Translations under genes and position numbers: made by a program
Notes under the pieces: model-generated
The model's input: only the letters and a program-made list of their open reading frames with translations
Told to the model about the DNA's origin: nothing
Database searches by the model: none
Shown: positions 11,495 to 43,032 of the stretch, piece after piece
Numbering within the stretch: position 1 is the stretch's first letter
Layout of the letters: every line of letters begins with the position of its first letter
From: Bacteroidota bacterium
GTDB taxonomy: Bacteria > Bacteroidota > Bacteroidia > Cytophagales > Thermoflexibacteraceae
NCBI GenBank assembly: GCA_004292785.1
Contig: RDXG01000228.1
Location: 1-44,374 of the forward strand
Direction of reading: 5' to 3'
DNA length: 44,374 nt

Positions 11495-12771
11495 AAAAAA
11501 GAAGAAAAGGGCATCAATGCATGAACTGCGAATTGTTGGTTCAGGAACGTTTCAATTTTTGTCCGCAATGTGGTCAAGAAAACACAAACAACAGGGTTTC
11601 TTTGAAAGAATTAGGCAAAGATTTGCTAGACAATTTTTTGAGTTTCGATTCACGTTTGGCGCGCAGTATTTTGCCTTTTTTGTTTAAACCAGGCGAATTG
11701 ACAACGGCTTTTAACAACGGAAGTCGCCTGAAATACATTCACCCTGTTCGGTTTTATGTGATTATGAGTGTGTTTTTCTTTTTTGTTTTTGGGAAAATTG
11801 CCATTTTTCCTCCTGAAGCAGAAGACATGAATTTGAGTGCGCTCAACGAAGAAATACGAATGAATTTGCGCAGAGAAATTACAGACGAATATTACAATTC
11901 TAAAACCATTTTAGACAGCTTAATTTTGGATTCTTTGGTAGATCATCGCTATGAAAAAGCCTTTGGAAAGTTGGCAGTTGGGGCGGATCAGGATTCGTTA
12001 AGAGAAATTATTGATCAAGAAGAGGCTCAAAACGAAAAATTGAAACAACAAAAAGATAGCCTTGCCATCGATTCCTTGTTCAAATTGCGAAGCACAGAAA
12101 TAGAAAAAAAGGCTTTAAAAGATAAAAAAAAGCAAATTTACGGCAATAAAGGCGGAGTAAAACCCAAACTATTCAAGCGCGATTCTGCAAATAAAACTTT
12201 GTTTTGGTTTCCTTTTATCTTGGATTCTGTGCATTTTGATGTAAAAAAAGCCAAACATTTGGCAAAATTTCCTCGCATGAGTGCTGAACGTTTGCTCGAT
12301 TCTTTGGACGTAAAACCCCTCCCAATTCATGTCAAAGTTGCGACTCAATACATTAAATTTGTCCGAAATGACGTGGGTGTTTTTGTGCAAAACGCCATCG
12401 GAAACGTGCCTTTGATGATGATGTTTATGTTGCCTTTTTTTGCCATTTTTCTTAAACTTTTGTATGTTCGTTCTAGCAAATTGTATATCGAACACCTGAT
12501 TTTTACCTTTCATTTACAGACTTTTGTGTTTTTTATTTTTGGGCTTGCCCTGTCCATGATTTTGTATAACAGTGAAGACGAAAATATTGCTTTGGCACTT
12601 TCTTTTGCTATGTTTTCTCTACTTTTTTATGCTTATTTTTCGTTTAAAAGGGTGTACGGACAAGGTTTTTTTAAGACAAATCTAAAAATGATTGTCTTGT
12701 TTTGGCTGTATGTCTTTACAATTTCACTTTTTTTGTTTTTGGAAATTATGTATTCGTTTTTTATGTACTAA
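11491..12771 (+). CDS. DUF3667 zinc-ribbon membrane protein
   Basis: This 426-residue protein begins with a zinc ribbon (C10-x2-C13 and C24-x2-C27). It is followed by the DUF3667 core, with 'LLDNFLSFDSRLARSILPFLFKPGELTTAF' and 'HPVRFYVIMSVFFFF'. Hydrophobic segments lie at ~92-112 and, in the C-terminal part (~305-425), there are four further membrane helices. Between them is a charged, mostly helical segment of ~180 residues. The family is common in Bacteroidota and has no assigned function. The ATG overlaps the stop of the protease gene (ATGA at 11491-11494), so the two are co-translated, though a functional link is not established. Confidence 0.9.
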   Translation: MKKRRKGHQCMNCELLVQERFNFCPQCGQENTNNRVSLKELGKDLLDNFLSFDSRLARSILPFLFKPGELTTAFNNGSRLKYIHPVRFYVIMSVFFFFVFGKIAIFPPEAEDMNLSALNEEIRMNLRREITDEYYNSKTILDSLILDSLVDHRYEKAFGKLAVGADQDSLREIIDQEEAQNEKLKQQKDSLAIDSLFKLRSTEIEKKALKDKKKQIYGNKGGVKPKLFKRDSANKTLFWFPFILDSVHFDVKKAKHLAKFPRMSAERLLDSLDVKPLPIHVKVATQYIKFVRNDVGVFVQNAIGNVPLMMMFMLPFFAIFLKLLYVRSSKLYIEHLIFTFHLQTFVFFIFGLALSMILYNSEDENIALALSFAMFSLLFYAYFSFKRVYGQGFFKTNLKMIVLFWLYVFTISLFLFLEIMYSFFMY

Positions 12772-12827: not shown

Positions 12828-13120
12828 ATGTCAAATTATCCTTTATGCCGTTGTTTGTGTCTGCACAAATATTGTAGGGAGTTGTTTGTGTGGACACAAA
12901 CAATGGCATAGAATTAAATAAACTCAAAGACGTTTGACAGGCTCAAGACGATTTTGAGTTTGGAATAGTCATTGATGCTTTTGCCAAAAAATACCATGTT
13001 GCAGATCATCAAAAAGAGATTATAACAAGAGATTTTAGCGAAATTTTAACAATTCCTTGTATGGATAATTTGGAAATTGATTTGGAAAAATTGTATGCGC
13101 GCGCCTACAAACAGAAATAA
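12828..13120 (+). pseudogene. Small gene of unknown family split by a 63-bp palindromic element
   Basis: A start ATG gives MSNYPL up to 12845, and then a palindromic element flanked by TA interrupts the frame. If 12846-12910 (element plus one TA) is removed, the frame continues as ELNKLKDV, a TGA at 12935-12937, then QAQDDFEFGIVIDAFAKKYH and so on to ...KLYARAYKQK and TAA at 13118. The restored protein would be about 75 residues with one nonsense codon. I do not recognise the family. A related peptide (SNYPIG..., KDFSEILTI.C) is present at 14120-14175. The gene appears dead because of both the insertion and the stop codon. The remnant after the stop (12938-13120) contains no early ATG. Confidence 0.65.
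12844..12910. mobile_element. TA-flanked palindromic element, copy 1 (MITE-like)
   Basis: The element of 63 bp (12846-12908) is bounded by TA on both sides. Its outer arms TGCCGTTGTTTGTGTC and GACACAAACAATGGCA are inverted with one mismatch. Inside, CACAAA and TTTGTG can extend the long stem, or two small hairpins (TTTGTG-N4-CACAAA, twice) can form instead. A second copy lies inverted at 42721-42787 with 62 of 67 identical positions. The TA on both sides resembles the target duplication made by IS630/Tc1-mariner transposases. The copy interrupts a small reading frame, and removing it restores the frame. Confidence 0.75.
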
Positions 13121-27759: not shown

Positions 27760-30546
27760 ATGGCAATTACTTGGCAGGAAATCAAGTAAAGATCGGCAGA
27801 ATTTGCTAAAAAATGGGAAAATGAAACTTCTGAAAAAGCAGAAGCAAAAACTTTTTGGGACAATTTCTTTCATATTTTTGATTTAGATCGCAGAAGATTG
27901 GCAACTTTTGAACAAAATGTCAAAAAATTAGGCGGAAAACAAGGTTTTATAGACTTATTTTGGAAAGGCGTTTTGATTGTCGAACACAAATCTGTTGGCA
28001 AAGATTTAGACAAAGCCTTTGATCAAGCCCTCGATTATTTTCCAAACCTCAAAGAATACGAATTGCCTCGTTATGTTTTGGTTTCAGATTTTGCACGTTT
28101 CAGACTCTACGATCTCGATGACAATTTGCAACACGAATTTTTAATTCAGGAATTAACCGAAAATATTTCGCTTTTTGGTTTTATGGCAGGACATTTTACC
28201 AAAATTTACAAAGAAGAAGACCCAATTAACCTCATCGCTGCCGAATTATTGGGCAAACTTTTCGACAATTTAAGTGATTTGGGTTATGAAACGCATTTGT
28301 TGGAAAACTTTTTGGTGCGTTTGGTTTTTTGTATGTTTGCCGAAGATACTGCCGTTTTTGACTATAAAAACCAATTTTTAGAATATTTAGAAAATCATAC
28401 CCAAACCGATGGCAGTGATTTGGGAATACATTTGGCAAAAATTTTTCAGGTTTTGAATCAGCCTTTGGAAAAACGAATGTTTTTGAGTGAAGATTTACAA
28501 AAATTTCCTTTTATCAACGGCAAATTATTCGAAGAAAAGTTTGATTTGGTGGATTTTAACGCCCAAACTCGCCAATTAATTTTAGAATGTTGTTATTTGG
28601 ATTGGAGCAAAATTTCGCCCGCCATTTTTGGTTCACTTTTTCAAGCCGCCATGAATCCCAAAAAACGCAGAGATTTGGGGGCACATTATACTTCCGAAAA
28701 AAATATTTTAAAAGCAATTTCACCCTTATTTTTAGATGATTTATACGATCAATTCGAAAAGGCACGCAAAAATCCTCGAAAATTAAAGGAATTGCACAAC
28801 AAATTAGGCAAAATTACTATTTTTGATCCTGCTTGCGGTTGCGGAAATTTTTTGATCATTGCCTACCGAGAATTGCGTTATTTGGAAATTGAAATTATCA
28901 AAGAATTGTATGGAGGGCAACAAGTTTTGGAGGTTTCGACTTTGATTCAAGTCAATGTAGATCAGGTTTTTGGCATTGAAATCGAGGAAATTGCCTACCG
29001 AATCACGCAAGTTGCGATGTGGATCACCGATCATCGGTGTAACCAATTGGTCAGCCGTAATTTTGGAAAATATTTTATCAGAATTCCGCTAACTGTTGCT
29101 CCTAACCTATTGAATAGCAATGCTTTACAAAGTGATTGGAAAAAATTTGTATCCCCAAAAAAGATCAGTTTTATTTTAGGAAATCCGCCTTTTATTGGCA
29201 AACAATTCAGAAATGAATCACAAAAAAAGGACATGAAATTGGTTTTTGAATCTGTAAAAATTAATAATTCTGCTACAAATTCTTTGGATTATGTGGCGGC
29301 TTGGTACATCAAAGCGGCGCAGTACATTCAAAATACAAAAATTAGGGTGGCTTTTATTTCCACAAATTCGATCACGCAAGGCGAACAAGTTGGGATTTTA
29401 TGGAGCAAATTGTTTCAGTTGGGCATCAAAATTTTCTTTGCGCACCAAACTTTCAAATGGTCAAATGAGGCTTCACACAACGCACAGGTGCATTGCGTAA
29501 TCATTGGTTTTTATAAAAATGGCGAAACTTTGTTTGATTTTGAGAACAAACCTGTTCCAAAAAAAATATTTTCTTACAAAACTGTAAAATCGGAAGCCAT
29601 CGAAAAAATTGTGCCAAATATTAACCCATATTTGGTTGATAGCAAAGATGTTTTAATTCAAAGGCGTTCAGAACCACTTTGTGATGTCCCAAAAATTAAA
29701 TTTGGGAATCAACCCATCGATGGCGGTTTTTTGTTGTTTTCGACAGAAGAAAAAAATGAATTAATTGCTTTAAATCCTGTTTTAAAACCGTTTTTAAAAC
29801 GTTTTTTGGGTAGCCACGATTTCATTAACAGGCATGAAAGATGGTGTTTGTGGGGTTTGAATCAAGAAATTTCAGAATTAAGAAAAATAAAAGCTATTAA
29901 AAACAGACTCGAAAAAGTCAAAGAATTTCGAGAAAGTAGCATCAGAAAAGAAACAAATGAATTGGCAAAACAGCCACATGAATTTGCTTTTGTTTCTTAT
30001 CAAGAGGCGGATTATTTGTTAATTCCTCGTGTTTCTTCCGAAAAAAGAGCTTATATTCCGATGGCTTTTTTTACAAAAGAAGAAATTGCAGGCGATAGTT
30101 GTTTGGTAATTTATGGAGCAAATCTATTTATTTTTGGAATTTTAACTTCTTTGATGCACATGGCTTGGCTAAAATCGGTTGGCGGAAGGCTAAAAAGTGA
30201 TTTTAGATACTCAAATTCCATTGTTTACAACAATTTTCCCTTCCCAAAAAATGTAGAAAAAAAGAAAATTGAAAAAGTAGAACAAAAAGCGCAAAATGTT
30301 TTAGATATTCGCAAAATTTATGAGCAAAAAGGCAACAGTTTAGCCGATTTGTACGACCCACTTTTTATGCCTGCGGACTTGCAAAAAGCCCACCAAGAAC
30401 TCGACAAAGCAGTAGATTCTTGCTATCGTCCTGAAAAATTTGATGGCGAAAATCAAAGAATTTCCTTTTTGTTTGGCTTGTACGAACAATATCTTTCGCC
30501 TTTGGAATCGGCTATGAAAAAAGCAAATAAAATTAGGAAAAAATGA
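27760..30546 (+). pseudogene. MmeI-type restriction-modification enzyme with stop at codon 10
   Basis: From 27760 the frame reads MAITWQEIK, then TAA (27787-27789), then RSAEFAKKWENETSEKAEAK and on to 30546, about 928 residues. The N-terminus (both sides of the stop), spacing and whole length align from memory with MmeI, a single-chain type IIL/IIG enzyme that both cuts and methylates DNA. The nuclease motif is intact: D65, then E75-x-K77 in GFIDLFWKGVLIVEHKS. So are the methylase motifs: DPACGCGNF (motif I) and LGNPPF (motif IV), followed by target-recognition and C-terminal regions with 'GGRLKSDFRYSNSIVYNNFPFP'. The next possible start is TTG at 27898, which would lose 46 residues but keep D-E-K. 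Either the gene is dead, or a weak internal start gives a shortened enzyme. Confidence 0.88.
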
Positions 30547-42684: not shown

Positions 42685-42715
42685 TTTTGCGTAGGGTTTG
42701 TGGCTCTACGCAAAA
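42685..42715. repeat. 10-bp hairpin after the SDR gene
   Basis: TTTTGCGTAG (42685-42694) pairs perfectly with CTACGCAAAA (42706-42715). It begins 18 bases after the SDR stop codon and can act as a terminator. A similar arm (TTTTGCGTAGA) recurs at 42850. Confidence 0.65.
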
Positions 42716-42720
42716 TACTT

Positions 42721-42787
42721 TATGACGTTGTTTGTGTCCGCACAAACAACCCCCTACAATGTTTGTGCAGACACAAACAACGGCATA
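42721..42787. mobile_element. TA-flanked palindromic element, copy 2 (inverted)
   Basis: This is the inverted copy of the element at 12844-12910: 62 of 67 positions agree. It too is bounded by TA (42721-42722 and 42786-42787) with a 63-bp body. Some differences from copy 1 keep base pairing: CACAAAC/GTTTGTG here is CACAAAT/GTTTGTG (a G-T pair) there. The spacer is otherwise non-coding. Confidence 0.75.
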
Positions 42788-43032
42788 AAAATATTAATTC
42801 ACAAAATCCAACTATTTTCCTTTATTTTTTATGTAATCAAATTTCTCTATTTTGCGTAGAGTTTAGCAAAGCCCTTCTACACAAAACTTTACCTTGCGGA
42901 AAATACATCAATTTTTGAGCTTACAAAAACAAAAATAAGAAAAAAGTTATAGGAATGAAAACAAAAAAAACAGTTTAAAAACCTAAACAAAAATCATTCG
43001 TTGTCAAAATAGAATCATGCAAACTTTAATAG
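42788..43032. other. AT-rich spacer before the last complete gene
   Basis: Apart from the hairpin at 42850-42886 this stretch shows no gene or clear promoter. It is very A-rich toward 43000. Together with 42667-42787 it forms a 366-base non-coding region unusually rich in palindromes. Confidence 0.5.
42850..42886. repeat. 11-bp hairpin related to the one at 42685
   Basis: TTTTGCGTAGA (42850-42860) pairs with TCTACACAAAA (42876-42886) at 10 of 11 positions. The left arm and following bases (GTAG.GTTT) match the hairpin at 42685-42715. Confidence 0.55.

Follow-up and report, generated by a model that had tools for sequence, protein, structure and literature searches.

REPs have been studied well mainly in Proteobacteria and with GTAG feet, and the REP-associated tyrosine transposases (RAYTs) cut single strands and copy paired REPs around bacterial genomes. 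In the REPIN of Pseudomonas fluorescens (PMC3116915), two inverted REPs with their feet outward are separated by a short spacer and fold into one hairpin as single-stranded DNA, and the doublet is copied as such and tied to a RAYT. The 67-bp elements described here are like it in all these respects, but the foot is (TAT)GCC and not GTAG, the stem is AT-rich with a TCCN loop, and a genome holds only ~24 units. The E. coli system (4er8; PMC8266576), in which the HuH/Y1 enzyme TnpAREP takes a foot plus hairpin in single-stranded DNA, is similar as well, whereas here the enzyme is of another subclass, the foot differs from the GTAG REP and the stem is perfect, without a bulge. RAYTs of subclass 2.6 (RAYT group 5), as far as the main text of PMC6006769 describes them, occur mostly in Bacteroidetes, lack GT[AG]G feet and have "atypical secondary structures" on their flanks, further copies of which are found elsewhere in the genome; they carry the motifs NH[LIV]H, WQ, YIH[QN]NP and SS, with a median length of 179 aa and an HuH-Y spacing near 82. 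That main text gives no motif for the flanking structures; here a foot, a loop and a stem consensus with its variation are given, and the two sets may overlap.

The window, by which we mean the whole stretch of 44,374 nucleotides analysed (contig C89 of a 3.7-Mb assembly in 391 contigs, 89.9% complete), contains two of the elements (Table 1). We conclude, with a probability of roughly 0.85, that they are REPINs/BIMEs of a Bacteroidota type, mobilised by a RAYT via single-stranded DNA.

The two copies, already recognised in the sequence-only reading, lie in inverted orientation and are identical at 62 of 67 positions, each starting with TATG and ending with CATA, while their 60-base flanks agree at 22% and 33%, which is about chance. 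The high identity between unrelated flanks indicates that the copied unit is exactly 67 bp, from foot to foot. When folded as single-stranded DNA, either strand of both copies closed into a single long hairpin (−18.9 to −26.6 kcal/mol, z −8.1 to −10.3), with 27 bp in copy 1. The alternative fold into two small hairpins, which that reading had also proposed, is accounted for by the presence of two REP units in each copy. The linker of copy 1 is, among the pairs compared, common only to copy 2, with one change. No Rfam family was found in the window. A separate hairpin, TTGCGTAGGGTTT...TCTACGCAA, lies just upstream of copy 2 at 42687-42713, with no other exact pattern match in the genome, and an imperfect hairpin similar to it is seen near 42852-42886.

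Table 1. Features in the window, and arrangement of the same hairpins over the genome (positions are those of the window unless a contig is named)
Feature	Position	Strand	Basis
REPIN copy 1, two inverted REP units, feet outward	12844..12910	+	identity to copy 2, single-stranded DNA fold
REP unit 1a, foot TATGCC (12844-12849) and hairpin GTTGTTTGTG-TCTG-CACAAATATT	12844..12873	+	
Copy 1 linker, GTAGGGA	12874..12880	no strand	
REP unit 1b, foot TATGCC and hairpin ATTGTTTGTG-TCCA-CACAAACAAC	12881..12910	- (minus-strand reading)	
C-terminal remnant of Uma2-type (PF05685) gene, in-frame TGA	12908..13120	+	match to C150 paralogue
REPIN copy 2, inverted relative to copy 1	42721..42787	-	identity, fold
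REP unit 2a, foot TATGAC and perfect hairpin GTTGTTTGTG-TCCG-CACAAACAAC	42721..42750	+	
Copy 2 linker, CCCCTAC	42751..42757	no strand	
REP unit 2b, foot TATGCC and hairpin GTTGTTTGTG-TCTG-CACAAACATT	42758..42787	-	
Single hairpins	C86, C241, C356		
Inverted pairs	both window copies, C158, C102, C290		
Triple	C211:9765-9911		

The genome was searched by pattern and by BLAST, and the copy counts rest on these searches. About 24 hairpins of the form GTTGTTTGTG-N4-CACAAACAAC (up to 3 mismatches) were detected, against 0 for a reversed control pattern, which bears out the idea of a small, non-autonomous palindromic element with many copies. They occur as singles, as inverted pairs and as one triple; of 17 sites, 13 lie between genes, and at the remaining four the only overlap is with ORFs of 97-129 aa. 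The single unit is thus a short palindrome within the 20-50 nt of REPs, repeated and mainly extragenic, and the pair has the build of a REPIN or BIME, two inverted REPs and a linker that form one long hairpin and are replicated as a unit. Outside this genome, the relatives, and the named records in which this hairpin recurs, belong to the Bacteroidota, mainly to the Cytophagales. Among named genomes, 79 stretches match it exactly, for example in Bernardetiaceae, Mucilaginibacter, Runella, Arcicella, Flectobacillus and Dyadobacter.

Some of these matches deserve separate mention. The exact hairpin is also present in 17 viral-contig stretches (L271-L287), which may represent phages or wrongly assigned DNA of a host. 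In one relative (G002), two REPIN copies (L044 and L051) are identical including their flanks and lie beside an apparent tRNA gene; this is probably a longer duplication or an assembly repeat and not a pair of independent insertions. A different hairpin, CGTTTGGTG-TCTT-CACCAAACG, occurs three times in locus L174 (C86:30855-30911 and 29509-29530), and its GTG-TCYN-CAC top, the same as here, possibly makes it a related REP subfamily.

With the orientation of each unit set by its loop alone (TCC/TCT/TTC/TTT versus the complement), GCC was found next to the stem on the 5' rather than the 3' side in 13 versus 5 of the 23 units of this genome, in 25 versus 0 of 34 units in relatives and in 67 versus 1 of 129 units elsewhere. 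The five units with a 3' GCC are mostly single hairpins footed on both sides. As in REPs, the conserved foot thus stands 5' and, in most units, on one side only; its consensus is NGCC, extended to TATGCC in this genome, and is neither the GTAG/GTGG nor the CGTC of the known REP superfamilies. At C86:30782-30811, a single hairpin has TATGCC at one end only; the sequence at its other end is unrelated.

This one-sided foot bears directly on the interpretation first given to the elements, namely that they are MITEs of an IS630/Tc1-mariner element, with terminal inverted repeats, insertion at TA with its duplication, and a DDE transposase acting in trans. The pair does have an inverted-repeat form, and TA stands at both ends of both window copies. 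However, two units placed head-out read TATGCC...GGCATA, so the terminal TAs are the ends of two feet and not a target duplication, and the TA is found on single hairpins too. At positions −6/−5 it occurs in 17 of this genome's 23 units, compared with 1 of 34 in relatives and 5 of 129 elsewhere (6 of 163 together), and a check for TA on both sides, which the sequence-only reading had itself suggested, found copies at C158, C290, C241 and C134 without it on one or both sides. A search of the genome (90% complete) with the PF13358 profile (DDE_3, IS630 type) gave no match to the partner transposase that was expected, no IS630 element with such ends was seen, and the units adjoin RAYT genes instead. 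Contradicted by the foot, the TA counts and the absence of DDE_3, the IS630/TA interpretation was rejected, and we regard it as hardly credible.

The variation of the stems was assessed in 45 distinct units chosen by GCC, left arm and loop only, with the right arm left free. Watson-Crick pairs were present at the variable pairs 5, 6 and 7 in 32, 34 and 29 of the 45, compared with shuffle means of 21, 21 and 19. Changes of the left arm (GTTGTTTGTG, GTTGCCTGTG, GTTGTTCGTG, GTTGTCGGTG) are compensated by the right arms while the loop and the foot stay constant; the tendency of copy differences to preserve pairing, first noticed between the window copies, therefore extends across the units. Conserved stems with compensatory change would also be expected of non-mobile host elements, kept for their function as bidirectional terminators or as stabilisers of mRNA 3' ends, and the units do lie mostly between genes, several of them just past a stop codon. 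REPs, too, may secondarily acquire terminator or stabiliser roles. Yet no T-run follows copy 1, a terminator scan around it found none, and such a role would account neither for the one-sided GCC foot and the exact copying of the unit nor for the grouping around RAYT genes described below, making a purely host function very improbable.

The PF01797 (Y1_Tnp) profile matched three proteins in the genome. Two of them, 146 and 155 aa long, have the size of IS200-type transposases, and the third, a RAYT-like protein of 181 aa (C357:6828-7370), passes the NCBIfam model REP_Tyr_transpos (103.8 bits; curated cut-off 80) and fails the IS200 model (31.3 bits; cut-off 55). Its HuH motif (H60, H62) and Y144 are conserved in the alignment of its relatives, and the best PDB match of its profile is the E. 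coli TnpArep (4er8, E 8e-9). With the motifs NHIH60, FWQQ, YIHKNP144 (K in place of Q/N) and SSAK and an HuH-Tyr spacing of 84, it has the features of subclass 2.6 (RAYT group 5). The likeness to what PMC6006769 reports in its main text thus includes the Bacteroidota host, a RAYT of ~180 aa with NHIH, WQ, YIHxNP and SS, the lack of a GT[AG]G foot and the copies elsewhere in the genome. One REP unit, with the variant foot CTCC, ends 102 bp upstream of the gene; of the other flank, the contig retains only the 24 bases that follow the stop codon. Mobilisation in trans, as the earlier interpretation had assumed, is probable, and the enzyme serving the units is likely an HuH/Y1 RAYT.

Around 62 distinct RAYT genes, 20 units were found within 400 bp (46 kb searched) versus 1 at 400-1400 bp (109 kb). 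For part of these loci the presence of a REP was itself the reason for fetching them; this choice inflates the overall unit count but has no bearing on where the units lie relative to the RAYT. At the loci chosen by RAYT alone, 3 units were near and 0 far for 56 RAYTs, suggesting that the GCC-foot family serves only some RAYTs. REPtrons, in which a RAYT is flanked by cognate REPs, are represented by four loci with units on both sides of the gene (L107, L115, L117 and L134), and a broken RAYT (L090) also has units on both sides. The RAYTs of the two-sided REPtrons are 31-34% identical to the one studied here, which has its one unit on the flank within the contig. RAYT genes at L204, L249, L255, L261 and L263 are flanked by different hairpins of their own, such as GGTCAAGATT..AATCTTGACC at L255 and, at L204, GGCTAAAGTTGCAAACTTTAGCC on either side; this points to several further REP families within the order.

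Units and RAYTs do not always occur together. In four relatives with units, G010 (100% complete, 34 unit matches), G008, G012 and G007, neither RAYT query found a match; G002 has units and only a weak RAYT match, and RAYTs are present in G004 and G005, where no match to GCC-foot units was found. The units may outlive their RAYT, or another enzyme may serve them. One variant of the REPIN/RAYT explanation, a sub-case of it and not exclusive of it, is that the units are relics of an earlier amplification, the responsible RAYT having since disappeared or decayed in many lineages, and that they now move little or not at all. This agrees with the units of G010, G008 and G012, where no RAYT was detectable, and with single units whose feet have decayed, but the window copies are still identical at 62 of 67 positions and the genome retains an intact RAYT. 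We regard the relic variant as possible, though doubtful.

Copy 1 had been thought to interrupt a small gene. As claimed, MSNYPL and ELNKLKDV come into a common frame once 65 bp are removed. The rejoined frame, however, has 14 codons and is followed directly by TGA, and what lies beyond is the tail of an Uma2 gene: ELNKLKDV-stop-QAQDDFEFG... downstream of copy 1 corresponds to residues 150-219 of a 220-aa Uma2-type protein encoded on C150, an intact paralogue with a PF05685 (Uma2) domain (43.6 bits). The remnant lacks the first ~150 codons, i.e., the first two thirds, and fewer than 60 bases separate the ATG of MSNYPL from the end of the preceding DUF3667 gene at 12771. With the TGA next and a truncated tail behind it, "interrupted small gene" is misleading, and insertion into an intact gene is not supported; copy 1 sits at the edge of a decayed scrap of an Uma2 pseudogene, which it may have broken itself or entered as a remnant. 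No orthologue of the remnant close enough for a clean empty site was found: an 87% identical piece on C385 starts after the junction, and the C150 and C31 sequences differ by about three codons at the junction, so that MSNYPL is only possibly coding sequence. Some 15 Uma2-like matches indicate that this family is expanded in the genome.

In the REPIN/RAYT explanation that we prefer, each element is built of two inverted REP units, each with a 5' foot (TAT)GCC and a 10-bp hairpin with a TCCN loop, joined by a short linker, and the pair, when single-stranded, forms one long hairpin. The RAYT (TnpAREP, an HuH/Y1 tyrosine transposase) would recognise foot and hairpin in single-stranded DNA, cut beside them and paste a copy of the pair into other intergenic DNA with no target duplication. 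Since several relatives have units and no detectable RAYT, and the REPtron RAYTs share 31-34% identity with ours, mobilisation by a RAYT is what we infer, with E. coli TnpAREP as the homologous model for cutting and copying; the units, their direction, their spread and their grouping around RAYT genes are direct observations. RAYTs of the Bacteroidota type (subclass 2.6/group 5) most likely serve the GCC-foot units. A broader proposal, which we hold to be evenly balanced, is that units with an NGCC foot and a TCCN loop in Cytophagales and Sphingobacteriales constitute a third REP superfamily, the cognate substrate of subclass 2.6/group 5 RAYTs, with NGCC instead of GTAG as the guide, arms whose changes compensate each other around a constant foot and loop, and units that long outlast the loss of their RAYT.

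A definite foot and loop consensus, together with REPtrons, is a useful addition for a GCC-footed REP/REPIN family of Bacteroidota. The foot, stem and loop and the two-sided REPtrons make up a substrate-enzyme pair for testing the target choice of another RAYT group, and the genomes with and without a RAYT offer material on how long REPs outlive it.
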